Positions 40,957 through 56,668 of a DNA stretch of 64,000 bases are shown piece after piece; positions within the stretch are counted from its first letter, which is position 1, and each line of letters starts with the position of its first letter. Source of the stretch: Sedimentisphaerales bacterium (GTDB taxonomy: Bacteria; Planctomycetota; Phycisphaerae; Sedimentisphaerales; SG8-4); the NCBI GenBank assembly GCA_016928975.1, contig JAFGJR010000006.1, positions 14,169-78,168 of the forward strand, in the 5' to 3' direction. The position numbers and the translations under genes are program-made. The notes beneath the pieces were generated by a model. The model did not search any database. It saw only the letters and a list, made by a program, of their open reading frames with translations, and had not been told where the DNA came from.

Positions 40957-42840
40957 GTGGGACATCGTATGGAACGGTTGGCCCGGAAACGGACGGGGTT
41001 TGGAGATGTCGGTCGTAGTATCTCCGGCCACACAGTCCGGGAGCTGCTGTTCTTCACCCTCTTTTACCTGTACGTGTGGCTGGTGATTGAGCCGCACTTG
41101 ATCTTTCATGGATCCGACCGCATCACCAATTTCCCCTCGTTCTATACAACCTGGCGATTCTTCGCGTCCCACCTGAGCTGGCCGGGAGGGCTCATCGAGT
41201 ATTTGTCGGCCTTTCTGTCACAACTGTTTTTTCTCTCCTGGCTTGGCGCGATCGTAATCACAATGCAGGCATGGACCTTCAGACTGTTGGTAGCATACCT
41301 GCTGAGAACGATGGATCTCACGAGGCTGCAAATTGTCGCATACGTGCCGGCTCTGTTGTTGCTGGTGACCTACGGTCAGTACACCTATTTCTTCCCCACG
41401 ACGGTGGCCGTGCTATGTGGCCTCGCGTTGGCATCAGTCTATGTCCATCTGGCCGCCAAGAGAGCGCCGGCTGTGGCTGCGGCGACCTTCATAGGTCTAT
41501 CCTTGGCATGTTATTACGCGGCCGGTGCGGCCGTGCTGCCCTTCGCGCTGGTATGTGTGATTCCGGAGCTCCTGTCATCGGGCCGGCGCCGGCTCGCTGT
41601 GCTCTACGTACTGGTCGCAGGGGGATTGCCTTATGTATTCGGAGTCAAGATCCTTGGCGTCAGCATCATTGATGCCTATACCGACCTGCTGCCCATCTCC
41701 TGGAAGCTACTGTACTTCGCGGTGCGTCGGCGGGGTGTGGAGATCGTTTATGTCCTCTACCTGCTGGTGCCGGGCATCATGGCTCTCGGAGGGATCACGT
41801 CCACTCTGTGGGCAGCGAATCGAGGGACTGGCCTGGTGAAACAGGATCGCAGACCGGTCTTCCGCTGGCTGGCACGCACCCTCGCGCTGGTCGCCATCGG
41901 TGGGGCAGTGGCCTACGGGAGCTTCGATAAGGCTCAGAAGACCCACTTTGCCGTGGATTACTACGCCTACCACAAGATGTGGTCCGAGGTCCTGATCGAG
42001 GGCCGCACGGGCAGTGACGACCCCTCTGTCATGCACGCAGTGAATAGGGCACTGTATCATACGGGACAGCTCGGCAATCGCATGTTTGTCTGGCCGCAAA
42101 ACCCGACGTACCTGTTCCTGGAAGGCGCCGAGTATCAGTGGGCATACTGGCAAAGGTTCGGCGTCCACCTGGAGATCGGGTTCGTCAATTCCGCCGAGAA
42201 TGCCCTGATGGAATGCCTGGCAGGCATGGGCGACCGGCCCATGATCCTACAGCAACTGGCAACGATCAACATGGTCAAAGGCAACCTTGATACGGCGCGA
42301 GTGTATCTTCACGTGCTGAGCACGACCCTGTTCCATGGCAACTGGGCGAGGCACTACCTGGACCTCCTGGTGCGTGACCCGGACCTGGCGACGGATCGCG
42401 ACATACAGAACTTGCGGGCAATCGCCATGGACGAGGATTATCCCTCACTTCATTTGTCCGATGAAAGCATGCTGTCTTGTCTCTTGAAGAAGAACGGCGG
42501 GAATCGGATGGCGTTCGAGTATTTGATGGCGTCGCACCTGTTGAACAGACAGTTGACTCGCTTCGTCAAACGCGTCGAGGAGCTCCATGACATGGGGTAT
42601 GAGACGCTGCCAAGACACTACGAAGAGGCCATCCTGGTGTACTCCGCCGCGGCGCGGACGACCGTTCAGTTGAGCGGCTACGCGCCGCGGGACGAGGTGC
42701 GTCAGCAAATAGAGCGTTTTCTCGGGATCCTCCGGAGCTATGGCGGGAACAAGCAGGCGGCCTTCGCCGATCTGGCGGAATCCTATGGCGACACCTACGC
42801 ATTCTACAATGCGTACGGTCCTCGGGAGATGACAAGATGA
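40957..42840 (+). CDS. DUF6057-like integral membrane protein
   Basis: The 627-residue product has about ten hydrophobic segments in its first 320 residues (for example ELLFFTLFYLYVWLVI, FFLSWLGAIVITMQAW, IVAYVPALLLLVTYGQYTYF) and a soluble C-terminal half of helical repeats (TARVYLHVLSTTLF, AFADLAESYGDTYAF). The FPSFYTTWRFF and PGGLIEYLSAFLSQ segments match my memory of DUF6057 proteins of planctomycetes and Bacteroidetes. Function is unknown. The last four bases, ATGA, overlap the next gene, so the two are coupled. I see no catalytic motif. Confidence 0.8.
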   Translation: MGHRMERLARKRTGFGDVGRSISGHTVRELLFFTLFYLYVWLVIEPHLIFHGSDRITNFPSFYTTWRFFASHLSWPGGLIEYLSAFLSQLFFLSWLGAIVITMQAWTFRLLVAYLLRTMDLTRLQIVAYVPALLLLVTYGQYTYFFPTTVAVLCGLALASVYVHLAAKRAPAVAAATFIGLSLACYYAAGAAVLPFALVCVIPELLSSGRRRLAVLYVLVAGGLPYVFGVKILGVSIIDAYTDLLPISWKLLYFAVRRRGVEIVYVLYLLVPGIMALGGITSTLWAANRGTGLVKQDRRPVFRWLARTLALVAIGGAVAYGSFDKAQKTHFAVDYYAYHKMWSEVLIEGRTGSDDPSVMHAVNRALYHTGQLGNRMFVWPQNPTYLFLEGAEYQWAYWQRFGVHLEIGFVNSAENALMECLAGMGDRPMILQQLATINMVKGNLDTARVYLHVLSTTLFHGNWARHYLDLLVRDPDLATDRDIQNLRAIAMDEDYPSLHLSDESMLSCLLKKNGGNRMAFEYLMASHLLNRQLTRFVKRVEELHDMGYETLPRHYEEAILVYSAAARTTVQLSGYAPRDEVRQQIERFLGILRSYGGNKQAAFADLAESYGDTYAFYNAYGPREMTR

Positions 42841-44585: not shown

Positions 44586-45557
44586 CTATCTGCCATCCAT
44601 AGCATTCTCGGCCTGCGGTAGAGCAGACGCGACGGGCATGCCTTGCCAGTCGGTCAGGAGATGGGCGAGGCATCCTCCGCCACAGGCGCGGGTGGCGAGG
44701 CTCCGACAGGGGGAGGAGTCCGCGCGTCCACAGAAGGCTTTCATGGGCGCCAGGCGATTGGCGAGTGTGGCGAGCTGCTCGAAAGGCCGGCGGTCGGAGA
44801 TGTGGATGCGTCGGGGGCCGGTTAAGCGCGAGCAGTGCCGTACCTCACCGTCCGGCTCCACATGGAACTGGGGCGCACACCACGCAATCGGCCAGCTCAC
44901 TTTCAACGCCACAAGCTGGCCGAGCTGCCGACGTGAGAACAGACAAAGTGGCAGACCACAGGCGAAACTCGTTTTCACGCCCACGTCCGTGAGCGCAGAG
45001 GCGATCTCGATCACTTTGGCTGCCCACACAGGGTGGTCAGCCGGCGTGATCCATTGCGGCCCGCTATCCCAGCGGCTCCGCCCCACCCCAATGGTCACCG
45101 TCTCCAGATCCTGCAAGGTGCTTACCCGTTGCAGGAGCGCATCGGTGGCCACGTCTGGCGAGGGCAGCGCCGCGAGCAGTGTGTCTGGAGCGAGGGCGTG
45201 AGGCATTTCCTCCGCGGTCGTACGGGCGGGTTGGAGACCCGTCCCTGCGCTACGGACTGTCCGCCATCCGCAATCGATCGCTGTGTCATTGGCAAGGGGG
45301 CCGTCGTGGACGTACACACTGACGCTAAAACCATTCTCCTGAAGCCTTGCTGTCATCTGCTCCAGGTGCGGCTGCGCCTTCGGCGAGTCAACGTGCAGGG
45401 TCGCCTCCCTCTGGCGCAGAAACGCAGAATCTTCTGTTGCGCAAGATACCGAACCTTGCATCTCTACAAGAGCGGCCATCACCTGCTCGAAGGTCTCCAT
45501 TTGCATGATCCGGCCCGGTGATCCGGCAACGGTCGTGGCCACGACGAGATTAACCAT
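44586..45557 (-). CDS. Radical SAM/SPASM-like protein lacking the cluster cysteines
   Basis: The 323-residue product begins at ATG 45557, set by GAGGAGG, and overlaps the end of the upstream radical SAM gene by 8 nt. It aligns with that neighbour: MVNLVVATTVAGSPGRI against MPNILLTNYCNRNCPYC. The three cysteines at 10, 14 and 17 are Val, Pro and Ile, and the GGEP motif is also gone. The C-terminal half keeps family features: SFACGLPLCLFSRRQLGQL, CSRLTGPRRIHI and a Cys-rich end with CGGGCLAHLL. It is therefore probably a non-catalytic paralogue that could bind peptide or partner enzyme. Confidence 0.8.
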   Translation of the reverse strand: MVNLVVATTVAGSPGRIMQMETFEQVMAALVEMQGSVSCATEDSAFLRQREATLHVDSPKAQPHLEQMTARLQENGFSVSVYVHDGPLANDTAIDCGWRTVRSAGTGLQPARTTAEEMPHALAPDTLLAALPSPDVATDALLQRVSTLQDLETVTIGVGRSRWDSGPQWITPADHPVWAAKVIEIASALTDVGVKTSFACGLPLCLFSRRQLGQLVALKVSWPIAWCAPQFHVEPDGEVRHCSRLTGPRRIHISDRRPFEQLATLANRLAPMKAFCGRADSSPCRSLATRACGGGCLAHLLTDWQGMPVASALPQAENAMDGR

Positions 45558-46512
45558 GTCCGTCGCCTCCTCTCGACAGGGACAAAGTGCGCGATAGACA
45601 CCCGCCTCGACAGGTCCCGGTACGCCGGTTCCGGCAGGAGTAGCATGATGGGGTATTGCCCCGGGCTTGCTCGGAGGCCCAGCGGCGCTCGAAGTGTTCC
45701 TGCACCTGGCGCAACGAGTTGAAATCGGTGAGCCGGACGGGCGGCTCGTTGGAAAAGGGAAAACACCGCCAGACGGCCAAATCGGGCCCGATGTCAAGAA
45801 TCGGCTTGCAGTCAAACAGGAACCGTGTGCCGCATTCCGCCAGTATGCCTCGTTGCTCGGGCGAGAACATGCACAGCCGGAACCCGCAGTCGAAACCGAG
45901 GGTGATGCCGTCGCGGGCAAGCGCCTCGGCCATGGCGACGAGCGTGTGACATGCCTCATCCATCTGTGCCTCGGCCAGATAGGCATTGGGGGTCCCGTGG
46001 ATTGGCTGCGCCAGACCGATTCGGATCACGGAGCTCAGCTTCCACGTCACGATCGCCTCTCGCAGGTGCTCCCAGGAGAACGGCGTCGTGAAGATGTTGA
46101 AGGACAGGCTGAGCCGGCTTCCGAGACACCGGCAGTTGGCCTCGATCTGGGTCCATTCCTGCGGCGCATACGTGTTCGGATGATTCAGGTTGAGGATGAC
46201 CGTGAACAGGCCGCGTGAGGCAGGGGGCAGGGATTGACGCAACTGAGGCGTTGTGCCGTTGGTGAAGACCTTGATGTCGTATCCCCGCTCGGCGAGCGAG
46301 CGCACGATGTCCGCATAGCGAGTATGCAGCGTCGGCTCGCCCCCGAGAAGCGAAACCAGACCCCGGCTCGGACTCAGGTACCGCAGAACTGTCTCCAACT
46401 CCTCTTGGGACATCTCCCACTGGCCGGAGGCGGTGCCGAGCTCTACCTTTGCTTTGGCAAAACAGTAGGGACAATTGCGATTGCAGTAGTTGGTCAGCAG
46501 GATGTTCGGCAT
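45550..46512 (-). CDS. Radical SAM/SPASM-type peptide-modifying enzyme
   Basis: The 320-residue product has the CX3CX2C motif CNRNCPYC at 10-17, which binds the SAM-cleaving 4Fe-4S cluster, and LLGGEPTLH (about 55-63), the SAM-binding GGE motif. The C-terminal part has FDCGFRLCMF, a CKPILDIGPDLAVWRCFPF stretch and CYSCRNRRTGTCRGGC, which looks like a SPASM/twitch auxiliary cluster region. Such proteins modify RiPP precursors. It lies 27 nt after the PqqD-like gene, which would deliver the precursor leader. Confidence 0.9.
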   Translation of the reverse strand: MPNILLTNYCNRNCPYCFAKAKVELGTASGQWEMSQEELETVLRYLSPSRGLVSLLGGEPTLHTRYADIVRSLAERGYDIKVFTNGTTPQLRQSLPPASRGLFTVILNLNHPNTYAPQEWTQIEANCRCLGSRLSLSFNIFTTPFSWEHLREAIVTWKLSSVIRIGLAQPIHGTPNAYLAEAQMDEACHTLVAMAEALARDGITLGFDCGFRLCMFSPEQRGILAECGTRFLFDCKPILDIGPDLAVWRCFPFSNEPPVRLTDFNSLRQVQEHFERRWASEQARGNTPSCYSCRNRRTGTCRGGCLSRTLSLSRGGDGHG

Positions 46513-46539
46513 TCCCAGGGCTCCGCGGAGGTGGAAGTC

Positions 46540-46824
46540 TCATGCTGGCTCTGCCGCCGTGGTTTCCTCGATCAGATTCTCCGACTTCCACTCTTCGATC
46601 AGACGCGTGCAGTCCTGCCCGACCACCGACTTCTCCGGGCTCCCGTCGCACTCGTCGTGCAGCTTCTCGACGGCTTCGTCAAACGACATCTTGTGCTCCA
46701 CGAGACTGCGCCACAGCGCAGCCCCGGTCTGATTCACGGTGTAGTAATGCCCGGTCGTCGTGTTGAGCAGGACCAGCATGTCCTCCTTGCTTCGCCACAC
46801 GACATCCTTCTTTGCCATCCACAT
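46540..46824 (-). CDS. PqqD-like RiPP recognition element
   Basis: The 94-residue product has the PqqD fold signature: VVWRSKEDMLVLLNTTTGHY, YTVNQTGAALWRSLVE (GxxLW) and a C-terminal helix LIEEWKSENLIEE. PqqD-type proteins bind the leader peptides of RiPP precursors and hand them to enzymes; in lasso clusters this part is called B1. AAGGAG precedes the ATG. It lies just upstream of the radical SAM gene on the minus arm. Confidence 0.9.
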   Translation of the reverse strand: MWMAKKDVVWRSKEDMLVLLNTTTGHYYTVNQTGAALWRSLVEHKMSFDEAVEKLHDECDGSPEKSVVGQDCTRLIEEWKSENLIEETTAAEPA

Positions 46825-46860
46825 CTTCGATCTCCTTCTGTTAGGGACTGAGAAAAGCGT

Positions 46861-47955
46861 TCATGCCTGTTCGCGGGCCTTCTCCGTGTGCTTCCAGGTG
46901 CGATACAACTCGCCCAGCGACCGCGGCGAGACCCAGGGTGCGCACACGAGGAACTTCGCAAGGGCTCCCTCCGCGCCGTGGAACTCGAGCCAGCGTCGTC
47001 GCAGGACGGGCGCCAACGACGTGCGGGCCAGGATCGCGTCCCGATCCCAGTACCGGCGAACCAGGCGGTCGAAAACCGGCGTCACGCCCCAGGCCTGCGG
47101 CAGCCACGACCGGGGCATCTCCCAGCCCATGCGCTCGATTCCGCGCCAGGCCATCCATCCGATCCTCCTGGTGTTCGTGCGATGGAATGCGTCCAGGATC
47201 CTATCGGGGTCCGGTTGGCGGACTCTCCACCACGCGGCCAGGTCCCGCAGCCAGATCGCCTGGCGGCAGCGATGATGGTACGCGTGCAGCACCAACAAAA
47301 CGGCTTCATCCGCCGTCGAAAGCCTCAGCAGAGGGGGCCATCGGCTGTCCGGTTCCGCACGCGCCAGAAGCTGCTGGGGAGGAAGCAGTCTCCAGAAGCG
47401 ACGACGGTTGATCGCTTCCAGGTGCACCTCGATCGTCGTTGCCTCGCGTTGGAAGATGCGCTGGCGGCGCAGGTCGTGGGCCTCGTAGTCTCGCTGACAC
47501 AGCTCGCGTGTGAGCACGTCCATATCCTTCCGCGGAGCCAGGACATCCACATCGCGCATTTCCCGGTCCCCCAGGCATGCGAAGGCGTCGAGCAGATAGG
47601 TGGCGCCTTTGAGAAGCACGAGGCGCAGGGAATGCTTCCGGGCGGCGTCTTCCAGGTCTTGTATGCCTGCCATTGCGGCTCGGCCGCGCTGCTCCGCCGT
47701 CGCCCGAGCCACCCAGACCTCATCCAGCACCGGCTCGGGGAGCCCGTCGAGTCCCTCCCATGCGGGGCCGAAGCTGGCCAGGACACGGTGATAGGCGGCT
47801 GCGTGCAACAGGCACGGCCAGTTCAGCCTGCGGGCATCCCAGTGGGCCGTGACACGCTGCCCCCTCCAACTGGCCTCCAGGCTGGCAAACCAGAAACGGC
47901 GCGTATACTCATCGACGCTCTTGGGCAGAGCGACATTCTCCTTCTGCGAAATCAT
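46861..47955 (-). CDS. Nucleotidyltransferase-like protein (PF14907 type)
   Basis: The 364-residue product has the nucleotidyltransferase core with LVLLKGATYLLDAFACLGDR then EMRDVDVLAPRKD (two Asp of the DxD site, about 137-139), and a later helical part (ADEAVLLVLHAYHHRCRQAIWLRDLAAW). From memory this matches the uncharacterised nucleotidyltransferase family often found in lasso and other RiPP clusters. It would tailor the peptide or another small substrate, but the reaction is unknown. Its start overlaps the end of the ABC exporter gene by 47 nt. Confidence 0.82.
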   Translation of the reverse strand: MISQKENVALPKSVDEYTRRFWFASLEASWRGQRVTAHWDARRLNWPCLLHAAAYHRVLASFGPAWEGLDGLPEPVLDEVWVARATAEQRGRAAMAGIQDLEDAARKHSLRLVLLKGATYLLDAFACLGDREMRDVDVLAPRKDMDVLTRELCQRDYEAHDLRRQRIFQREATTIEVHLEAINRRRFWRLLPPQQLLARAEPDSRWPPLLRLSTADEAVLLVLHAYHHRCRQAIWLRDLAAWWRVRQPDPDRILDAFHRTNTRRIGWMAWRGIERMGWEMPRSWLPQAWGVTPVFDRLVRRYWDRDAILARTSLAPVLRRRWLEFHGAEGALAKFLVCAPWVSPRSLGELYRTWKHTEKAREQA

Positions 47956-49828
47956 AGCTTCTCTCTATTGTCCCGTTCAAGTCATCATCTGGGACAACAT
48001 ACTGGGCCAGGCACATGTATCGAAACAGGGGACATTGCTCGTACAGGGTCCGCGGTGCACCGAGCCCCTCGACCCTGTCACGCCCGATCACGACCACCTG
48101 ATCTGCCTGAACCGCCAGCGCCATACGATGTGTGATGACCAGCGTGATCCGCTCGGACGCGTGTCTTCTGAGGAGCCGGACTACCGCCTGCTCGGATCGC
48201 GCATCGAGGGCCGAGGTCGGCTCGTCCAGAAGGAGGATCTCCGGCTTTCGAAACAACGCACGCAGGAGGGCCAGTCTCTGGACCTCCCCCTCTGACCAGT
48301 TGCTGCCTGTCTCTCGTACCTGGGCGTTCTCGCCGCCGGACCTGGACCGGAGCATCTCATCCAGGTATACGTCCTTGAGCGATTCCCATAATTGCCCCGT
48401 CGTGACGGGCGAATCGTCATCCAACAAGTTCTGTCGAATGGTTCCGCTGAAGAGTCTCGGTTGCTGGAGGACGACCCCGACGCGTCTGCGCCACTGAGCC
48501 AGGTCGTACGAATGGATGTCACATCCTGCGACGCGAATCTGCCCCCGGCCAGGTTGTCGAAAGCCGGCGATCATGTCGATCAGGGTGGACTTTCCTGTGC
48601 CGCTCAGCCCGACAACAGCCAGAATCTCGCCGCGGCGGACGGAAAAGTCCAAATTGCGCAGCAACGGCATCCCCTCTTCATAAGCAAACGACACCTGATG
48701 GAACGTTAGATCGGGCAAGGGCGAGGGCAGCTCGCGCGGCGCGTCGGCCTCGCCCGGCTCCGTCGGCAAGGCCAGGGTCTCCAGGTATCGTTTGGTCGCC
48801 GCCGACAGGGTCTGCATGGAGGTAATCGCCGTCGCCGCTTTCTGTAGCTCGCGTGAGAGCAGGACGATACCGGTCAGGGTCGCCACCAGCTCTCCCAGGG
48901 ACAGCGCGCCCTGGATGATCCTATGCCGGCCGTACAGTGCCACCGCAAAGAAGCAGGCCCCCATGGCAACGCCGGAAAGCTGGCGGGCGGCCGTGCCGAT
49001 GACCTGGGCCTTCTGGCTGAGCCGTGAGTGGCTCTCGATCCAGTTCCTTACCGCCTCTTCCTCCTTCGCCTCGGCGCACAGACACTTCACAGTCTTGATG
49101 CTCATGAATGTCTCGCTCAGTCGCCCCGTGAGGTTGCTGGCCCGCTGAAGAATCTGCTGGCTGAGTCGGAACAATCTGTGCCTGAGCAGCACGGCGGGAA
49201 GCACGCCCACCAGAAGGCCCAACAGGATGATTGTCCCCATGGCGGGGGATTGCCAGAAGATCGCTATCGAGTACATGATGATGGCCAGGGGGACATACGT
49301 GAGGGTCCGGGGTGCGGTCAGCAGGCCGCCCTGGATGGCCCGAGTGTCGTTCTCGCACCTCGCGATCCATTCGCCGACGGGCTGCTTCTCCAGAATGGGC
49401 AGAGGCACGTGAAGCAGATGCGAGAAGATCTTCTGGCGAAGCGCCTGGAAGACGCGCAGACCGTACCTGACGCCGATAATGTCAGCGGCGAAGGCAACCA
49501 TCTGGTGGGTCAGCAGCAACCCGCAGGCGGAGGCGATCACTATCAAGGACCGTGTGTCGGTCAATTCCTCCTTGAGTTCCACCAGGTTTCGTATGACGAA
49601 CAGGAGGCCAGCCATGATGGCCGTGCCAACGCTGCGCAAGACGATAATCACCAGGGTGAGTTGCCAGGAGCACTCGCCGATTCGCCACACGGCCAGAAAG
49701 TCCGCCAGACCTGGCAGCCGAGGGCCGCTGCCGTCGCGGTTTGCTTGCGGTATCTCGATGCCGACTTCTCTCACGGTGTTGACTCCGTCGCACTTGCGCG
49801 ATCGTCTCTTCTGAGGGGATCTTCGCAA
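47909..49828 (-). CDS. ABC exporter, fused membrane and ATPase domains
   Basis: The 639-residue product has an exporter membrane domain with six hydrophobic segments (about 50-330) and an ATPase domain: Walker A GLSGTGKST (about 427-435), signature WSEGEVQRLALLRAL, Walker B ILLLDEPTSALD and switch His in VITHRMA. The signature has SEGE in place of SGGQ, a mild variant. No N-terminal peptidase domain is present, so leader cleavage must be done elsewhere, probably by the B2-like protein at 54115. It begins the minus arm and probably exports the mature peptide. An in-frame GTG about 16 codons in is an alternative start. Confidence 0.92.
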   Translation of the reverse strand: MRRSPQKRRSRKCDGVNTVREVGIEIPQANRDGSGPRLPGLADFLAVWRIGECSWQLTLVIIVLRSVGTAIMAGLLFVIRNLVELKEELTDTRSLIVIASACGLLLTHQMVAFAADIIGVRYGLRVFQALRQKIFSHLLHVPLPILEKQPVGEWIARCENDTRAIQGGLLTAPRTLTYVPLAIIMYSIAIFWQSPAMGTIILLGLLVGVLPAVLLRHRLFRLSQQILQRASNLTGRLSETFMSIKTVKCLCAEAKEEEAVRNWIESHSRLSQKAQVIGTAARQLSGVAMGACFFAVALYGRHRIIQGALSLGELVATLTGIVLLSRELQKAATAITSMQTLSAATKRYLETLALPTEPGEADAPRELPSPLPDLTFHQVSFAYEEGMPLLRNLDFSVRRGEILAVVGLSGTGKSTLIDMIAGFRQPGRGQIRVAGCDIHSYDLAQWRRRVGVVLQQPRLFSGTIRQNLLDDDSPVTTGQLWESLKDVYLDEMLRSRSGGENAQVRETGSNWSEGEVQRLALLRALFRKPEILLLDEPTSALDARSEQAVVRLLRRHASERITLVITHRMALAVQADQVVVIGRDRVEGLGAPRTLYEQCPLFRYMCLAQYVVPDDDLNGTIERSYDFAEGECRSAQERR

Positions 49829-50154
49829 CCGATGACCATGTGATGCACCTCAAAGAGACAGCCGTCCAAAGCCGTATGGTAGTGGCTGCGTGACGCTGCC
49901 GCAACCAAAAAGAGCCGACCTGAGCCGTTCCTGTGAACTGCGGAACATGTCTCGGTCACAAAGGTTGCCGTGGAAGAGACAAAAACCTCCAACGGGGACG
50001 GAGAAAACGCTTGACAATTCCTAGGACGACACCAAAATGGTCCGCGTTGGACGGTTGGCCTCGTCAGGAAGAGGTGCCCTCGGCAAATGATGGCCTACCG
50101 CGCGTTCGAGCGCAACCTGGCGGCCAAGGCGCATGGTCTGGTAAGGAGAACCAT
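49829..50154. promoter_or_regulatory. Divergent intergenic region of the RiPP cluster
   Basis: About 325 nt separate the ABC exporter (minus) from the precursor peptide (plus), so promoters for both arms should lie here. I see one plus-strand candidate (50010-50037) and no clear minus-strand one. An open frame runs through toward the precursor from 49933 but has no ribosome-binding site. Confidence 0.5.
50010..50037 (+). promoter_or_regulatory. Putative promoter of the precursor peptide
   Basis: A perfect TTGACA (50010-50015) is followed after 16 nt by CAAAAT (50032-50037), a 4/6 match to the -10 consensus. The leader to the precursor ATG would be about 110 nt. The -10 is weak, so this is tentative. 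Confidence 0.35.
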
Positions 50155-50313
50155 ATGAATGCAGCCGACAAGAACGTGGAGAACAAATCGACCAGAATGG
50201 CATACCAATCGCCGGCCATGAAGAAACACGAGCCGGTCAAAATCATGCAGGGGTCGTCTGAAGCTGATTGCCTCTGGTCTCTCTACTACGCGTCTCTCTA
50301 CTATTCCTATTGA
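50155..50313 (+). CDS. Candidate RiPP precursor peptide, Tyr-rich core
   Basis: ATG 50155 lies six bases after AAGGAG and gives 52 residues. The N-terminal 38 are polar and leader-like, including MAYQSPAMKKHEPVKIMQGS, and the last 14 are CLWSLYYASLYYSY. That tail contains SLYY twice, one Trp and one Cys and is rich in aromatic residues, as expected of a substrate for radical SAM cross-linking enzymes. It is first on the plus arm, next to kinase-like, radical SAM and peptidase genes and across from a PqqD-like protein and exporter. I know of no named family with this core. The leader/core boundary (perhaps after GS or near A37) is a guess. Confidence 0.8.
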   Translation: MNAADKNVENKSTRMAYQSPAMKKHEPVKIMQGSSEADCLWSLYYASLYYSY

Positions 50314-50412
50314 CAACGAGAGTCCTCTACAACCACAGCGCTGGTCGCCGTCGCGGGCAGAGAACCTGACCGAAGCGAGCCCCAATGAGAGCGGTTGACG
50401 CCGCCAGCACAG

Positions 50413-50468
50413 GGACACCATTGCCAGTGTGTCCGCGTTGGCGAGGGATCCCCTGTGACCAGGGGGTC
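50413..50468 (+). promoter_or_regulatory. Two stem-loops between precursor and enzyme genes
   Basis: GGACAC (50413-50418) pairs with GTGTCC (50429-50434), and GATCCCCT (50447-50454) pairs with AGGGGGTC (50461-50468) with one G-T pair. They lie in the roughly 300-nt gap after the precursor. No T run follows. Such structures often stabilise or attenuate RiPP precursor transcripts so that the substrate outnumbers the enzymes; that role is inference. Confidence 0.45.
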
Positions 50469-50611
50469 GCTCTTGTGCAACGTGCGCTGCTTTGCCAGGT
50501 ACACGTGTGAGATGATCGTACGGCCGAAGCAAGCACACGTGGCTTGCAGCGGCGAGTTCCGGTGATCTCGCGCGATCGAAGAAGAGGAGAACAAGAGCGA
50601 GGCGGAGACAG

Positions 50612-51676
50612 TTGGATCGCAAGAGCGACATGAAGAGGAGCCAGCGGGAATACCCTGATGCCAGGACACTGTTCATCGACTTGACCCAATGGGAGCTCGC
50701 GGTTCACTGTCGTGTCCCCCACGTCCTATCCTCTGTGAAGGCCCAGTTTGGAGATCGTGCTGCCTGGACGTCCTGGGTGGATCGAGTGCGTCTTGATTGC
50801 GATGTCATGTCCGACCCCCGGTCGTATGAGGAGCTGTGCGAGCGAATCTCTTTCAGCGGCCCGACTGTCAGAGCCAGCCGGAATGTGAATATCACGTATG
50901 CCTTCGAGCGCGGCCGCACATGGTTGCACGTGGCCGAGACAGCCGTCCTGGAACTCGACGACAGCACGCCAACCCGAAGCCGAGTCTATCTGAGACCGGA
51001 ACTGGACGCCGATAGCCCGCCGATCACGGGTTCAAAGAGACTGGTTGCCGACCCTGAGGCGTTCCTGTATCCTCTCCTGGCAGAGTGGATTCGCAACTTC
51101 AGCGCGTGCCTCATGCATTGCGGCGCCGTGGCTATGGGCGACCGGGCCGTGGTTCTATCGGGACCGCCCGGCAGCGGCAAGTCTACTCACGTTCTGCGTT
51201 TGCTGCTTCATGGTGTGCAATTCCTGGCCGATGACCTGGCCATCATCCACCGGGGTGAGGGGGGGCTGGAGATGATCGCTTTTCGCGAGGTCGCCAACGT
51301 GGGGCGCCGGACCATCGAGCACTTTCCGGAGTTGCGGGGTGTGGCCGGGGCGCCTTTGCGTGGCGACGGGAAATATTGCGTGGATGTGCCTGCGTACTTC
51401 GGCCAGCACGCTTGCAGGCGAGCCGCGCCGGGAGCGATCGTTCGCTTGCATCCTGATACTGAGCAGTGGATGGAGCGTTGCCCGCGAGAAGATCATCTTG
51501 ACGGCATCCATGCAATGGCCTGGTTCGTTTCCGCCGGCAAGCGAAGCGAACAGCATTTCTGGTTGATCTCTGACTGGCTCACCGCGTCGTCACAGTGGAA
51601 TGTGTCCCAAGGCTACCTGACTCATCACCTGGACGCCTTTCTGGACCGTATCCGATTGGATTTGGGCGCAGCATGA
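50612..51676 (+). CDS. HPr-kinase-like P-loop protein 1
   Basis: The 354-residue product has an N-terminal region of unknown fold and, at about 187-195, the P-loop GPPGSGKST within an HPr-kinase-like core (LMHCGAVAMGDRAVVLSGPP, then FLADDLAIIHRG, the DD of the metal site). Relatives phosphorylate the C-terminal Ser of some lasso peptides. A kinase role on this precursor is inference. The start is TTG 50612 with GGCGGAG just upstream; an ATG at 50630 is the alternative. Its ATGA overlaps the next, related gene. Confidence 0.8.
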   Translation: MDRKSDMKRSQREYPDARTLFIDLTQWELAVHCRVPHVLSSVKAQFGDRAAWTSWVDRVRLDCDVMSDPRSYEELCERISFSGPTVRASRNVNITYAFERGRTWLHVAETAVLELDDSTPTRSRVYLRPELDADSPPITGSKRLVADPEAFLYPLLAEWIRNFSACLMHCGAVAMGDRAVVLSGPPGSGKSTHVLRLLLHGVQFLADDLAIIHRGEGGLEMIAFREVANVGRRTIEHFPELRGVAGAPLRGDGKYCVDVPAYFGQHACRRAAPGAIVRLHPDTEQWMERCPREDHLDGIHAMAWFVSAGKRSEQHFWLISDWLTASSQWNVSQGYLTHHLDAFLDRIRLDLGAA

Positions 51677-52683
51677 GAAGCAGTGACGGTCCTGTCAGCG
51701 AGATGTTCGAAACGTTGTGGAGCCGGCCGGTGTGCGAGCGCAGGCTGTCGTTCCTCGACATGGCTCTGGCCATCCGATTTGCCGATGAACGCCTTGGCAG
51801 GTACCTGTGTCGGACGCTGGATGCGTGGGAAGAAAGACCTGTACCGCCGGAGAGAGCTATCCGCTGTGTGATCGATTACACGGATGTCGTGCCTCACTGG
51901 CGAGAGGTGTTCGTGGGCGACCTGCGTTCGGTCGCCAGCGATCTCTTCGGAGAGATGCAAATGCTCGGGGCACAGGATGGCTACGCGGTTCTCCTGGAGA
52001 AGTTTGGGGCGGTCCTCCGCACGACGAGAGGTGACATGATGTGCCTCGTGGACGACGTGGAGGGCAGGCGACACGATGGCGATCCGTGCAACCTCAGCAC
52101 GGCTGCCTGCCTCATTACAGCGAGCTGTCTCCTGCGGAACGGGTACCTCGTGGTGCATGCCGGCGGGGTCGCTCGCCACGGTCGCTGCCAGGTGTGGACC
52201 GGTCCCAGCGGGATCGGCAAGACCACCCGCGTGCTGGACCTCGTCTCCAGGGGCTGGGACTACTACGGCGACGACGTGCTCGTTCTCGGCAGGGACGAGC
52301 GCGGGGCCTGGCACGTCTTCCCATACTCGCGGACAGCGAGGGTAACGTCGGAGACGTGCTCTCGCTTCACGCAGTTGGCGTCCCTCGCGGACGGGAAGAG
52401 GACGTCCGACAAATACGTCTTCGACGTGGACCGCCTTTTTGCGACCACGATTCCCGCGTCGGGCGTGCTTGATCGGATTTGTTGCATCGGCCCCGAGCCG
52501 GAGAGCTACCCTCGGCGTCTCGGCGAATCCGAGGCAATCACACGGCTGATGGCGGGCTTTCTATACTATCTCTGGCCCGAGGATGCGAACCGGGTGCTGG
52601 ACGGGATGTGGGACGTCGTGTCAAAAGTCCCCGTCTATGCGGTCTCTCGCGACACGCGCAGCGATGATGGGGTGGAAACATGA
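51673..52683 (+). CDS. HPr-kinase-like P-loop protein 2
   Basis: The 336-residue product is a second, divergent member of the same type: VVHAGGVARHGRCQVWTGPS with P-loop GPSGIGKTT (about 176-184), then YYGDDVLVLGRDE. It begins at ATG 51673, overlapping the end of the first kinase-like gene by ATGA; more upstream codons in frame lie inside that gene. Two kinase-like proteins in tandem are unusual for one RiPP cluster; one may be catalytic and one accessory. It also overlaps the next radical SAM gene by 4 nt. Confidence 0.8.
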   Translation: MRSSDGPVSEMFETLWSRPVCERRLSFLDMALAIRFADERLGRYLCRTLDAWEERPVPPERAIRCVIDYTDVVPHWREVFVGDLRSVASDLFGEMQMLGAQDGYAVLLEKFGAVLRTTRGDMMCLVDDVEGRRHDGDPCNLSTAACLITASCLLRNGYLVVHAGGVARHGRCQVWTGPSGIGKTTRVLDLVSRGWDYYGDDVLVLGRDERGAWHVFPYSRTARVTSETCSRFTQLASLADGKRTSDKYVFDVDRLFATTIPASGVLDRICCIGPEPESYPRRLGESEAITRLMAGFLYYLWPEDANRVLDGMWDVVSKVPVYAVSRDTRSDDGVET

Positions 52684-54110
52684 CGGTCCTGGCGAATCCG
52701 GAGATCGTGGATCTGCTGTCCGACGCGGAGCAGGCCAATCAGTGCCTTGGCCTGGCGATGCTTGGAGATCGCCCGGAAGAGTACGCCGTGGAGATCATGG
52801 AGTCCTTCACCCGAATTCCCAGGGTGGCCGATTCGTTGTTGGCCGCCTATTGCCGGTCGCGGTTTCCCTTCTTCGCGACCGGGTTCGAGCCGGGAAGAGT
52901 CGTCGGCGACGTGTCTTTCCGCGTGGGAGACAGGGTGTTTCGCCGCGAACGAGTGTTTCTACAAGGCGTGGAGAAGTGGCTCGCCTCCACGCCGCCGGGC
53001 GACATTGGCCGCTGCCTCTCACTGCTGGCGGGCCAGCACGTTCTCCACGGCGAGTACGAACGGATCATCAAGGCCCGCTACACAGATATGGAGATCGATC
53101 GATTCCGTGCGGCGATTCGGTCCCAGCGTGGACGCGAGGAAAGGCAGCTTGGGTTTGCCCCCACTTTTCGCTGTAACCTGTCCTGTCCCTATTGCATGAG
53201 TGCTCCGCTGATGCGACAGGAGGCGGACTTCGCCACCGTACGGAAAGTGATCGACTGGGCCTCCCGAGCCGGGGTCCAGAAGCTCCGTTTGTATGGAGGT
53301 GAGCCTTGTCTATATCCGGAGTTCGCCAGACTGCTGTCCGAGGCGCGTGAGGCGGGCCTCCGGGTGTACATGGCTTCGAACCTGGTGGCGTCTGAAGAGG
53401 CCGTGAGTGCTGTCGGCCCCGATGTCGTGGATTGTGTCGCGGCACACACGCGGTCACCGAGTGTGGCTGGCTCGCAGGGCGAGGTCTTCAAGGCCAACGC
53501 TCTGCGCATTCGACGGACCGGAGTGGAAGTGCTGCCGCGATACAACCTCGTCGATGAGGACTGGAGCTTCCTGCGGGACATCGCCGGTTTGCTGCAGGTC
53601 GACAGAGTGTCGTTTGCCCCTGTGGTGACACGCTGTGAGTCCGTCATCCCCGGGCGAGAGAAATGGCTTGCCGACGTGCGTCTCGCATGCCGCTTCATGG
53701 AATACTTGTCGCGACACGGGCTTCGGCCGGTCCTTGCCAAGCCCTTGCCGCTGTGCTGCGTAGAGCAGATGGAGCTGTCCCGCTGGGATGTATTCGACGG
53801 TGTCTGTACCGCGTACCGGGATGGCTTCACGTTCAATGTGCTCGTGCACCCGGACACGAAGATCGGTCTCTGCGATGCCGACCACGGACCCGACCGCCCG
53901 TCGCTTGATGAGTTCACCTCCTGGGACGACTTGCAGAGCTACGTGGCTCCGCGCATGCGCGCCTGGCTGAGAGGGCCTCTGTGGCCCGAATGCTCGCAGT
54001 GCTACTATGGTGCGCGTGCCTTGTGCCAGGGTGCCTGTCTGGCTGCCAAACCCTTTCATTACAGCGGCGCCGACGTGTGCTCAACCGAAGCCGGCAGGGG
54101 AGGGACGTGA
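52680..54110 (+). CDS. Radical SAM/SPASM enzyme with long N-terminal domain
   Basis: The 476-residue product has about 160 N-terminal residues of unrecognised type, then the radical SAM motif CNLSCPYC (about 166-173) and LYGGEPCLY (about 206-214). The C-terminal part has several Cys (CDADHG, then CSQCYYGARALCQGAC) fitting a SPASM auxiliary cluster domain. Enzymes of this layout form cross-links or epimerise residues in RiPP precursors. The N-terminal domain might bind leader peptide, but no clear PqqD-like pattern is visible. ATGA overlaps the preceding kinase-like gene. Confidence 0.9.
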   Translation: MTVLANPEIVDLLSDAEQANQCLGLAMLGDRPEEYAVEIMESFTRIPRVADSLLAAYCRSRFPFFATGFEPGRVVGDVSFRVGDRVFRRERVFLQGVEKWLASTPPGDIGRCLSLLAGQHVLHGEYERIIKARYTDMEIDRFRAAIRSQRGREERQLGFAPTFRCNLSCPYCMSAPLMRQEADFATVRKVIDWASRAGVQKLRLYGGEPCLYPEFARLLSEAREAGLRVYMASNLVASEEAVSAVGPDVVDCVAAHTRSPSVAGSQGEVFKANALRIRRTGVEVLPRYNLVDEDWSFLRDIAGLLQVDRVSFAPVVTRCESVIPGREKWLADVRLACRFMEYLSRHGLRPVLAKPLPLCCVEQMELSRWDVFDGVCTAYRDGFTFNVLVHPDTKIGLCDADHGPDRPSLDEFTSWDDLQSYVAPRMRAWLRGPLWPECSQCYYGARALCQGACLAAKPFHYSGADVCSTEAGRGGT

Positions 54111-54114
54111 GATC

Positions 54115-54627
54115 ATGACGAGCTGGATCGCTCGACTGGCCCGGTGTTCCGGGACGCTTCAGCGTCTGGACCGCATTGAGCGGTTGTACCACAGCCGGTC
54201 TTTGCCGGAGTTGGTGGATGCGGTGGCGAAGGAGCACGCGGAACTGGCCCCCTCCGGCAAATGGGGGATGCGGCGACTCAAGTGGTGCTGGCCGCTATGG
54301 AAGATTCTCCATCGCGGCGTGCGCCAGCATCCATGCCTCTACTTCTCTCTGCTCGCCATGGCCTACGAGAGAAAGGCCGGTCGTGATGCAGAGGTCAATG
54401 TCGGCCTCTCCACCGACCAGTTCGACGCTACGGACGGGCACTGCTGGCTCACCCGTGGCGGCAAGATGCTGTATGGATCGCGCGGCGCTTCCTCTACGGA
54501 GTATCGCGAGTGCCTCGGACGACGCGGTCATATCGTGTACTGGTGGCGGCGAACCGCCGTGGCGACGAGTCCCGGACCCCACCCGAAGTGGCTGACCTGG
54601 TTCTGGAGGATGCGATGGCCAACCTGA
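54115..54627 (+). CDS. Lasso-B2-like transglutaminase-fold leader peptidase
   Basis: The 170-residue product has HPCLYFSLLAMAYERKAGRD (Cys about 83), EVNVGLSTDQFDATDGHCWL (His about 111) and an Asp/acid position near GGKMLYGS, matching the Cys-His-Asp layout of lasso B2 proteins (Transglut_core3), which cut off the leader peptide. Start is ATG 54115 behind GGGGAGGGACGTGAG. It overlaps the next radical SAM gene by 13 nt. In lasso clusters a B2 protein works with a cyclase; no such gene is here. Confidence 0.82.
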   Translation: MTSWIARLARCSGTLQRLDRIERLYHSRSLPELVDAVAKEHAELAPSGKWGMRRLKWCWPLWKILHRGVRQHPCLYFSLLAMAYERKAGRDAEVNVGLSTDQFDATDGHCWLTRGGKMLYGSRGASSTEYRECLGRRGHIVYWWRRTAVATSPGPHPKWLTWFWRMRWPT

Positions 54628-55634
54628 TGCTCACGACAGCCTGCAACTTCACGTGTGACTACTGCTTCGGCAAAGAGATGATCGGTCCCGGCCACGCACA
54701 ACAGACCATGAGCTGGGATCTGTTCCTGAGCCTCCTCGACTGGATCGACCGCGGGAACACTCCCAATCTGGACGTCCATCTTATGGGAGGAGAGCCCACG
54801 CTCAGCCCGCTTCTCGGCGACATGATCGGCGAGCTGGCCCGTCGAAAACGCCGGATCGCGGTCTTCTCCAACCTCTGTGTCCCGATGGATGCGACGGTGC
54901 TCGCGGACTCCTCCCAGCTCGATATCCTATGGATCGTCAACGTCAACCACCCGTCGTCCTATCGAGATCGGCAACTTGAAACCCTGAAAAAGCACCTCGC
55001 TCTGTTGGGTCCGGCGGCCGTCATTACGTTCAACATCACGAGCCCCTCGACCGAGTTCGATCACGTGCTCTCGTACGTCGAGGACTTCGGTCTGGCTCGT
55101 CACTTGAAAGTCGGAGTCACGCTGCCGACGTTGGACCACGTGAATGCGTACGTGAAGCGCGAAGACTATCCCGGCATCGCGGGGCGGATCATGGCCCTGC
55201 ACGATGCCGCCGGCCGCAAAGGCATAGACCTGGAATTTGAGTGTGGCGTGCCCTATTGTCTCTTCACGGCCGAGCAGCACAAGAGGCTCAAGATGCCGCG
55301 AGTCAGTCATTGCGGCTCGCGCCTGGATATCACGCCCACGGGCAACGTGATCAACTGCCTGCCGTTATGCCGCGTGGCCGCGATTCCTTACTCGGACTTT
55401 GCAGACTACCAGCAGGCGAGGGAGTGGTTTCGCAGGGCTCTGGCGCCCTATGCGAGTCTGGGTGGCACGGCGGCGTGTCCCACCTGCGAGCATTTGGTAC
55501 AGGGTCGATGCATGGCTTGTCTGGCGCATGCCCTGTGGAATCTCGACCACATCGCGTTGCCTCCACTGCCACAGAGCCGGGACGATGCAACCCGTCGCAC
55601 CTGCGGGGCCACCGACTGCGGGAGAGAGTCGTGA
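54615..55634 (+). CDS. Radical SAM/SPASM enzyme, paralogue of the minus-arm one
   Basis: ATG 54615, five bases after GGAGG, gives 339 residues. CNFTCDYC is at 10-17, exactly as in the minus-arm radical SAM protein, and LMGGEPTLSPLLG follows at about 56-68. The central part (WIVNVNHPSSYRDRQ, FNITSPSTEF, ECGVPYCLFTAEQ) and the SPASM-like end (CPTCEHLVQGRCMAC) align with it too. The divergent arms thus carry paired paralogues. A GTGA overlap couples it to the next gene. Confidence 0.9.
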   Translation: MANLMLTTACNFTCDYCFGKEMIGPGHAQQTMSWDLFLSLLDWIDRGNTPNLDVHLMGGEPTLSPLLGDMIGELARRKRRIAVFSNLCVPMDATVLADSSQLDILWIVNVNHPSSYRDRQLETLKKHLALLGPAAVITFNITSPSTEFDHVLSYVEDFGLARHLKVGVTLPTLDHVNAYVKREDYPGIAGRIMALHDAAGRKGIDLEFECGVPYCLFTAEQHKRLKMPRVSHCGSRLDITPTGNVINCLPLCRVAAIPYSDFADYQQAREWFRRALAPYASLGGTAACPTCEHLVQGRCMACLAHALWNLDHIALPPLPQSRDDATRRTCGATDCGRES

Positions 55635-56668
55635 GGCGTTCATTCTGGGAGCATTCTTGCCGAAGGATTCAGCGCTGGAACGGATGGGAGCTGCGGCGAA
55701 TCCAGCGGTTGGTGATCGAGCCGACCAACCACTGCACTCGCCAATGTCCCGTCTGCGGCGCCGTGCAATCGCGGACGCCGCGACCGCGAGGATACATGGA
55801 TTGGGGCGTCTTCACCCGGTTGGTTGCGGAAGCCGCCGTGCTGCGACCGGGTCGCATATGTCTCCAGGCGCACGGAGAGTCTTTGCTTCACCCCCGTCTG
55901 GTCGAGATGGTTCGGGCATGCGCCTCCAGGCGGTTGCACTGTGAGATCATCACGAACGGCGATCTGCTGACCCCGGAGCTCTCGCGTGCCCTGCGGGAGG
56001 CGGGACTGGCGAGCCTGATTCTCTCTCATCCAGGGGTGACCGCAGCCAACTACGAGGCGTGTCGTGGCTGCTCGTCCTCGCCGGAGACGGATGAGCGGTT
56101 GATGGAATCGCTTCGCCTCTGGGAGGGAGCCGCTGCCAAGGTCGGCGTCCAGAGCCTGATCATCCCATCACTGATCCCCGACCGCATGGACATCCTCAAC
56201 TTTGCCAAGCGATGGTTGGCGGTACCGGGCGTGCGGGACGTTGCATTCCACGGCTACTTGCCCTGGCCTCGCCACGTTCATGAAGACCTGATCCGATTCA
56301 TGGCCGAGACGTCGCGACGCTGCGAGCATGGCATGCTGTCGTTGACGGTCTTGTGGGATGGAACGGTGACTCCCTGCGCGTACGATACGTCGGCAGAGCT
56401 GTCGCTCGGTCGCTTCCCCGAAGCGTCGTTGCATCAACTGTACAAGGGTCAGGCGCTTCGCCGTATACGACGGAGTTGGTTTCGTCCGCCAGGCTGCTGG
56501 CCGGCGCTCTGTCAGACTTGTCTGGTCCGGCGATGCACCGCTCCCCTTGTCGTCATCCACCGGGAAGAGCTGCAGAAGCATGTCGGCAGCACCGACGGGG
56601 AGCAGGAATACATCGAGTCGATCCTCATACCTTTCGATCACGCTCCGTACAAGCGGCGTGTCCAGTAG
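55631..56668 (+). CDS. Radical SAM protein, third of the plus arm
   Basis: The start is a GTG at 55631 overlapping the previous stop as GTGA; it gives 345 residues. CTRQCPVC (about 35-42) is the cluster motif; AHGESLLHPR takes the place of GGE. The C-terminal part has TPCAYD and CWPALCQTCLVRRCTAP, a SPASM-like pattern. It is more distant from the other radical SAM proteins here and closer to general SPASM enzymes. It is the last gene of the plus arm. Confidence 0.88.
   Translation: MRRSFWEHSCRRIQRWNGWELRRIQRLVIEPTNHCTRQCPVCGAVQSRTPRPRGYMDWGVFTRLVAEAAVLRPGRICLQAHGESLLHPRLVEMVRACASRRLHCEIITNGDLLTPELSRALREAGLASLILSHPGVTAANYEACRGCSSSPETDERLMESLRLWEGAAAKVGVQSLIIPSLIPDRMDILNFAKRWLAVPGVRDVAFHGYLPWPRHVHEDLIRFMAETSRRCEHGMLSLTVLWDGTVTPCAYDTSAELSLGRFPEASLHQLYKGQALRRIRRSWFRPPGCWPALCQTCLVRRCTAPLVVIHREELQKHVGSTDGEQEYIESILIPFDHAPYKRRVQ

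Follow-up and report, generated by a model that had tools for sequence, protein, structure and literature searches.

A stretch of 64,000 nucleotides (nt) from contig JAFGJR010000006.1 of a Sedimentisphaerales bacterium of the phylum Planctomycetota (hereafter the window) contains at positions 44586-56668 twelve genes, recognizable as overlapping or tightly packed open reading frames in two divergent arms. These genes probably constitute a single cluster for a ribosomally synthesized and post-translationally modified peptide (RiPP) of an undescribed class, in which a chassis of the type found with lasso peptides and with linear polyphosphorylated peptides (LPPs) would be combined with radical S-adenosylmethionine (SAM) enzymes acting on a tyrosine repeat. 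The cluster unites two RiPP logics that are usually kept apart, the lasso/LPP chassis of RiPP recognition element (RRE), B2 peptidase, HprK-like kinase, nucleotidyltransferase and ABC exporter on the one hand, and radical SAM enzymes on the other. The gene set and its conservation, the precursor family and its leader motif are read directly from the sequences, as is the fact that the cluster contigs encode no cyclase. No description of such a class was found in the open-access papers searched. An earlier reading of the same DNA by a model (the original prediction) had already proposed a hybrid class in which radical SAM cross-linking replaces lasso cyclization, a proposal supported by the recurrence of the gene set without a cyclase; its twelve-gene two-arm layout is borne out by open frames at all claimed places. 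New with respect to the original prediction are the precursor family, its leader of lasso/LPP type, the Tyr repeats as the feature shared around the radical SAM family, and the LPPs as a precedent. The genes are the following (L100 is a locus of the Spirochaetota genome G697):

g1, 44586-45557, minus strand: degenerate radical SAM paralogue, 323 amino acids (aa); orthologue at L100:9096-10019
g2, 45550-46512, minus strand: radical SAM protein, 320 aa, with SPASM-like C-terminal cysteines; PF04055 at 54.5 bits
g3, 46540-46824, minus strand: PqqD-like discrete RRE, 94 aa; PF05402
g4, 46861-47955, minus strand: NTP_transf_5 nucleotidyltransferase, 364 aa; PF14907
g5, 47909-49774 (GTG start), minus strand: ABC exporter, 621 aa, or 639 aa from an alternative TTG start at 49828
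Precursor, 50155-50313, plus strand: 52 aa, with leader YQSPAMKKHEPVKIMQGS and core SEADCLWSLYYASLYYSY
g6, 50630-51676 (ATG start), plus strand: HprK-related kinase A-like; a TTG at 50612 is also a possible start
g7, 51673-52683 (ATG start), plus strand: HprK-related kinase B-like; a longer frame runs from 51595
g8, 52680-54110, plus strand: large radical SAM protein, 476 aa, with an extended N-terminal region and C-terminal cysteines; PF04055
B2-like, 54115-54627, plus strand: similar to transglutaminase-type cysteine leader peptidases, 170 aa
g9, 54615-55634, plus strand: radical SAM protein, 339 aa, paralogue of g2; PF04055
g10, 55631-56668, plus strand: classical radical SAM/SPASM protein, 345 aa, a variable part; PF04055 at 47.6 and PF13186 at 33.8 bits

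The genes g6 and g7 overlap by 4 nt (ATGA) and g9 and g10 by GTGA. For g9 a GTG at 54510 is open as well, yet relatives begin at MANLM or near it. The divergence of the arms around one centre stands as predicted, the size of this centre, given as 325 nt, being 326 nt when g5 starts at 49828.

Precursor family and unity of the two arms

The precursor gene, with AAGGAG six bases before its ATG, encodes the 52-residue Tyr-rich peptide noticed in the original prediction, and a family of 20 sequences (18 distinct) can now be assembled around it, all with YxxPxxxxH followed by a Tyr-rich core. Counted from the leader Tyr, Pro is found at +3, His at +8 and Ser or Thr at +17 in 20/20, whereby Y, P and H were themselves the search pattern for this tally. 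A relative, MEQKIKTAYKKPEMTKHEPIKIVQGSGCSGLYYASLYYYY, is encoded by L100:3796-3918, is 57% identical to the window peptide and follows the pattern YxxPxM..KHEPxKIxQGS...LYYASLYYxY. A profile built from these two peptides matched 15 proteins, one being the window's own, so that there are 14 database relatives, one of them identical to the L100 peptide; the alignment of 16 that includes both seeds shows full conservation of Y, P, K, H and QGS, with two to three LYY units in the core. Over the whole family the core consists of LYYxx units in 16/20 and of YYYYYYY-like runs in four loci of Desulfobacterota, and no Asp or Glu is conserved in the core of the tallied precursors, only Tyr repeats. The Desulfobacterota loci form a clade with one g2 subfamily (seed locus L116 of genome G1152, plus G1381, G1249 and G1298; the g2-like enzyme of L116 had matches in 4/242 genomes, seed counted). 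In 4/4 a peptide of 29-31 residues, for example MSKLNYEAPQFTCHEPLESVSFTYYYYYYY, is encoded between the PqqD and HprK genes, with the pattern YxAPxFxxH[EN]PLESVSxT followed by 7-9 residues that are almost all Tyr, and the loci also carry g8-like, nucleotidyltransferase, B12-binding radical SAM, g2-like and B2 genes, an ABC gene being seen in L125 only. A small precursor with a conserved leader beside modifying enzymes and an RRE, as is general for RiPPs, is present.

Do the two divergent arms belong together? In L100 nucleotidyltransferase, ABC exporter, precursor, HprK-A, HprK-B, g8, B2 and g9 are encoded on one strand and PqqD, g2 and g1 on the opposite strand facing them, so that parts of both window arms, g10 excepted, are found on one contig, again without a cyclase. 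As in the window the precursor sits directly upstream of HprK-A, and the overlap of the nucleotidyltransferase and ABC genes is found there too. Moreover, the arms share a pair of paralogues, the minus-strand g2 being 30% identical to the plus-strand g9 over 317 aa. Because L100 joins the parts of both arms and because of this paralogy, the arms form one system. That they might be unrelated gene sets never found together had been named by the original prediction as what would refute it. Two unrelated neighbouring operons, with a small peptide that is no RiPP substrate, would be in keeping with the divergent arrangement but are hardly credible in view of the same genes occurring together in another arrangement in L100, the fixed spacing in the precursor and the paralogy across the arms.

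Besides the window and G697, nine more database contigs pair g2-, g8- or g9-type proteins or the precursor (6,459; 8,618; 18,445; 21,148; 34,157; 41,548; 46,151; 134,960 and 160,454 nt), a pairing inferred only from records sharing a contig size to the base, with the types told by identity to g2. The contigs of 6,459 and 8,618 nt have g8- and g9-type proteins without the g2-type, and precursor matches share their contig size with g2- and g9-type proteins (18,445 nt) and with a g7-g8 fusion and a g9-type protein (8,618 nt). The cluster design recurs in at least two further bacterial phyla, Spirochaetota and Desulfobacterota; database names of relatives also point to Verrucomicrobiota.

Lasso- and LPP-type parts without a linked cyclase

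Searches against enzyme profiles, a check that had been proposed with the original prediction, assigned in Pfam the PqqD, nucleotidyltransferase, ABC and radical SAM families, so that the PqqD-like, nucleotidyltransferase-like and peptidase-free ABC proteins were correctly called. The protein g3 matches PF05402 with 48.4 bits (cutoff 23.4), and a profile of g3-type proteins from four relatives reaches the solved lasso RREs TbiB1 (5v1u, 1.2e-11) and TfuB1 (6jx3, 3.5e-10) and also 9x90 (1.3e-11). The same profile matches 9x8z, which we guess to be the LPP RRE, at 9e-5, poorer than the lasso RREs (1e-11). The nucleotidyltransferase g4 scores 96.2 bits against PF14907 (cutoff 31.2), with R, DxD and E kept in four relatives, and g5 consists of ABC membrane and ATPase domains without a peptidase domain in Pfam. 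The two HPr-kinase-like proteins of the original prediction are upheld through their relatives: the window copies are sub-threshold, g6 with 41.6 bits against TIGR04352 and g7 with 34.4 bits against TIGR04355, and have orthologues in L100 (E 6.9e-75 and 1.7e-31, respectively), and a kinase profile of five relatives reaches the HprK chains 1jb1 and 2qmh at about 1e-6, with the catalytic H, GxGK[ST] and DD kept. Furthermore, in an 805-aa database protein (P0006) a g7-type, HprK-B-like kinase is naturally fused to the g8 radical SAM protein. The prediction of a B2-like peptidase holds in part, as the window copy is sub-threshold in its family model and the L116 relative passes both NF033537 (35.8 vs 33) and PF13471 (40.8 vs 26); Cys74 and His109 are invariant in four relatives.

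In the available text of two papers paeninodin-like lasso clusters are described with RRE, B2, HprK, nucleotidyltransferase and ABC exporter (PMC13381572) and with kinase and nucleotidyltransferase (PMC9266682); in paeninodin-type lasso peptides it is the C-terminal Ser that the kinase modifies, and addition of a hexose to the phosphate requires PsmN, a relative of the nucleotidyltransferase (PMC9266682). The paeninodin and pseudomycoidin lasso clusters share RRE, B2, HprK, nucleotidyltransferase and exporter with the window cluster, which differs from them by the lack of a macrolactam cyclase and the presence of the radical SAM set and a Tyr-repeat core. An RRE with a lasso-like profile and a YxxP leader (20/20 precursors, YxxP being part of the search pattern; invariant in 16/16 of the alignment) are both present and would fit each other as binding partners. 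Could this be an ordinary lasso cluster with its cyclase elsewhere or lost and the radical SAM genes as bystanders? The shared set of parts and the lasso-like RRE profile would suit such an explanation, as would full-length matches to the cyclase family PF00733 on other contigs in 4/5 of the genomes with this gene set. It is nevertheless very unlikely, as PF00733 is absent from the cluster contig in 5/5 of these genomes, the match in G697 is a fragment, genes of the g2, g8 and g9 types accompany precursor and kinases in more than one phylum, and the core is devoid of a conserved Asp or Glu. A cyclase just outside the cluster in relatives would have contradicted the original prediction, which placed the cluster without a cyclase. 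PF00733 was found neither in g1-g10, the B2-like protein or seven neighbouring window proteins nor, when the more distant G1226 and G863 are included, on the cluster contig in 7/7 genomes. The single match in the whole genome G697 is a 26-bit fragment on a different contig, and those in G1152, G1381, G1249, G1298, G1226 and G863 also sit on contigs other than that of the cluster. The case for the lack of a linked cyclase is strong; that for the lack of any cyclase in the genome is weaker, genome completeness not being given.

For a chassis without cyclase the LPPs, which with the paeninodin-type lasso peptides come closest to the window cluster among known systems, provide a precedent from 2026. 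LPP clusters, described as restricted to Bacillota, encode a discrete RRE, an HprK kinase, an NTP transferase, an MsbA-like ABC exporter and an SpI-type (SipW-like) signal peptidase and no cyclase; the precursors have variable C termini and the leader YxxPxVLxHQxIxFETxxS, the HprK-like LppK phosphorylates core Ser3 just behind the cleavage site, and lasso discrete RREs bind [Y/W]xxPx[L/V/I/F/A] (Popov et al., 2026; PMC13381572). The window cluster resembles these in RRE, HprK, nucleotidyltransferase and ABC exporter without cyclase, in the YxxP leader with His at +8 and in a Ser close behind the leader. The two leaders agree at Y, P, H and a hydrophobic +11 (I/V) and differ at L6, F13, E14 and T15; the junction Ser stands at +18 in LPPs and at +17 here. 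In contrast, a B2-like peptidase is found here, no SpI/SipW domain is present in the scanned cluster proteins, and the Tyr-repeat tail and radical SAM set are additional. The term radical SAM is absent from the text of the LPP paper (PMC13381572). An LPP offshoot in which phosphorylation is the main modification and radical SAM chemistry a minor one would account for the LPP core set without cyclase, the agreement at Y, P, H, I/V and junction Ser and the action of LppK on core Ser3 (PMC13381572, as far as available). Such an offshoot is improbable given a B2- instead of an SpI-type peptidase, three to four intact radical SAM genes plus a degenerate one kept across phyla, and an RRE profile nearer to lasso RREs than to the presumed LPP RRE. 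Judged by sequence, we would file the cluster as a RiPP deserving its own class, as neither the linked cyclase of lasso peptides nor the SpI peptidase of LPPs is found and a conserved radical SAM set is added.

Radical SAM enzymes and tyrosine repeats

The proteins g2, g8, g9 and g10 all contain PF04055 and the CxxxCxxC motif (CNLSCPYC at 165 in g8), g10 also SPASM PF13186, and the g2 and g9 families keep additional C-terminal cysteines in SPASM-type fashion. The protein g1, in the original prediction a cysteine-less radical SAM paralogue, has in fact ten Cys; only CxxxCxxC is lost and the C-terminal cysteines are kept. Compared by hhalign, its two-sequence profile and the g2 family can be aligned across 274 columns (probability 98.4, E 5.7e-15), and g1 is a probable partner of g2. 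There is no counterpart of g10 in L100, the sole other complete LYY-type locus read. No NCBIfam peptide-maturase model exceeds its cutoff for g2, g8 or g9 among the best 25 matches listed, all being far below, which sets these proteins apart from the maturases of PQQ, mycofactocin and cyclophane RiPPs.

A PqqD-type RRE is paired with radical SAM/SPASM enzymes, and Tyr is used, also in PQQ and mycofactocin synthesis; darobactin and dynobactin are radical SAM-cyclophane RiPPs whose SPASM enzymes act on aromatic residues. To our knowledge kinase, nucleotidyltransferase and B2 peptidase are not part of any of these pathways. In the SynChlorMet cassette PqqD-like, ScmC and radical SAM/SPASM proteins occur together; g7 is weakly ScmC-like, and no model of this cassette reaches its cutoff (ScmD 21.3 vs 100, ScmC 16.5 vs 125, ScmF 32.3 vs 400).

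What could be the substrate of the g2-type enzymes? Of 7998 candidates scored with a joint profile of g2 and g9, 707 proteins reached E<=1e-15, the best 120 of which were listed. When at least 7 Tyr in 20 residues were required, a Tyr-repeat open reading frame was present at 7/11 of the strongest other g2-like loci (E<=1e-60, outside G697) as compared to 2/80 control radical SAM loci (Fisher 1.3e-6), and at 7/18 of all examined g2-like loci versus the same 2/80 (Fisher 6.6e-5); both matches at the generic control loci look like spurious frames. In Desulfobacterota and Acidobacteriota, genes distantly homologous to g2 often have Tyr-repeat proteins nearby. No residue other than Tyr is shared by these substrates; a modification of Tyr is therefore the parsimonious assumption, and the g2-type radical SAM family may act on tyrosine repeats. 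This would provide a candidate substrate rule for a radical SAM family without assigned function, including the enzymes beside large Tyr-repeat proteins.

The Tyr-repeat frames of Desulfobacterota (L118:9084-9497, L119:8851-9333, L127:8544-9020, L128:10975-11349 and 11521-12000, L129:1817-2161) encode 114-160 aa with an RR/Tat-like N terminus and repeats such as YYYNYGD, SSAY, YANYTNY and YYNYSRS, each adjoining a g2-like gene. The RR-containing N termini, the short L116 peptide excepted, look like Tat signals, and the proteins are possibly extracellular polytyrosine material. In L118 a second radical SAM/SPASM gene follows the g2-like gene, for which dynobactin and darobactin maturase models are among the highest-scoring, without reaching cutoff; L117 has the same kind of second enzyme, and no Tyr-repeat frame was found there. 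An Acidobacteriota frame (L113:12415-12951) near g2-like, g8-like and PqqD-like genes has CSCxx repeats and ends with GSYYTYYQTYYQTYYVYYS. In a planctomycete (L091:7449-10081) and an Acidobacteriota locus (L114:7428-11048) the g2-like gene is accompanied by a second radical SAM-like gene with a FAVP...W start, and no Tyr-repeat frame lies in the stretch read. In Spirochaetota genome G715 (L101:9726-11057) a g2-like and a weakly PqqD-like protein stand beside unrelated genes, where no substrate was found.

Proposed maturation of the precursor

The sequences suggest a scheme in which the substrate of each enzyme, the order of steps, the type of bond, the cleavage site, the export and the biological role are proposals. 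Briefly, g3 would bind the leader motif YxxPxM and present the precursor, whereupon g2 with its degenerate partner g1, g9 and g8 would modify the Tyr repeat of the core, g10 acting as a variable extra. The kinases g6/g7 may phosphorylate the invariant junction Ser (Ser34), g4 may decorate the phosphate, B2 would cut at VQ/G/S just ahead of Ser34, and g5 would export a product that is not a lasso. By analogy, Ser/Thr at +17 is the predicted phosphorylation site and VQ-G-S the predicted site of the B2 cut. The radical SAM chemistry has an even chance of consisting of Tyr-Tyr or Tyr-neighbour cross-links of the cyclophane or biaryl type. Regarding the cross-linking and subsequent tailoring of the original prediction, the tailoring is backed by kinase and nucleotidyltransferase genes with their catalytic residues kept; the cross-link stays an inference.

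Alternatively, in the same class the radical SAM enzymes may not cross-link and instead excise tyramine in a splicease-like manner, epimerize, or turn Tyr into a redox cofactor by oxidation, in the manner of PQQ or mycofactocin synthesis, a possibility to be taken seriously even if its chance is put somewhat short of even. The combination of RRE and radical SAM/SPASM proteins acting on Tyr in these two pathways would agree with it, as would the best matches of the g8 radical SAM core, which include MoaA, mycofactocin and PqqE models, all far below cutoff. A core with many Tyr together with exporter, kinase and nucleotidyltransferase would be more in keeping with a decorated peptide that is secreted than with a small cofactor, and no PqqB/PqqC or Mft partner is found among ten proteins scanned.

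Several observations weigh against the proposal of an undescribed class with a lasso/LPP-type chassis and Tyr-modifying enzymes or against single steps of it. The RRE g3 stays under the cutoffs of the NCBI lasso PqqD models (41.9 vs 70, 28.8 vs 80), and YxxP-related motifs, as stated in the available part of PMC12710340, occur across several RiPP classes and are not lasso-specific; the residue at leader +5 (Met 13, Phe 4, Thr 2, Cys 1) is mostly outside the published [L/V/I/F/A]. The HprK calls of g6 and g7 are sub-threshold in both Pfam and NCBIfam, one of the two may not be a kinase, and Ser/Thr between the LYY units could be the phosphate acceptor instead. The window B2-like protein is below the cutoff of NF033537 (20.6, cutoff 33), and no solved structure convincingly matched its predicted model (pLDDT 77.5); that of g1 is unusable (pLDDT 36). 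A Tyr-repeat frame is lacking within the stretch read at 4/11 of the strongest g2-like loci, and the LYY-type precursors from the window and from L100, having 5 and 6 Tyr per 20 residues, do not themselves come up to the threshold. Only one complete LYY-type locus besides the window is readable, other clade members being deduced from equal contig sizes. In other planctomycetes, in which the original prediction had suggested looking for the same gene set, those sampled lack a close copy: in 5/392 a lone, weaker g2-like gene is present (E 1e-48 to 1e-60), and 0/75 genomes of one planctomycete class, partly overlapping the 392, reach 1e-60.

If the proposal is correct, the fixed precursor motif allows the class to be mined at once, and phosphate on Ser/Thr +17 from the leader Tyr, a leader cut just before it and radical SAM modification of the LYY units are predicted. 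Going further, it could tentatively be imagined, at somewhat less than an even chance, that a RiPP superclass exists in which a Tyr-repeat core on a lasso/LPP-type leader and a wider radical SAM family for tyrosine repeats lead to multiply cross-linked polytyrosine materials. Its members would comprise large Tyr-repeat proteins of Desulfobacterota with a Tat-like N terminus as well as small peptides exported by Planctomycetota, Spirochaetota and Desulfobacterota, all modified by g2-type enzymes; the degenerate radical SAM protein would be an obligatory partner in the LYY clade, and the end would be phosphorylated and capped with a sugar or nucleotide.

By its RpoB the window belongs to Planctomycetota: identity is 57% and 59% to two planctomycetes over residues 6-1081, as compared to 44-54% in the longest segment for ten other genomes, with no match in 3/15 genomes. 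About 15 kb separate the cluster from an rpoB-rpoC/ribosomal-protein region upstream of it (positions 1223-29362 of the window, judged by eye from the frames), which is an unusual setting for a specialized metabolite cluster. Just beyond the minus arm, positions 40957-42840 encode a DUF6057 protein (318 bits), directly upstream of a PD40 beta-propeller protein.

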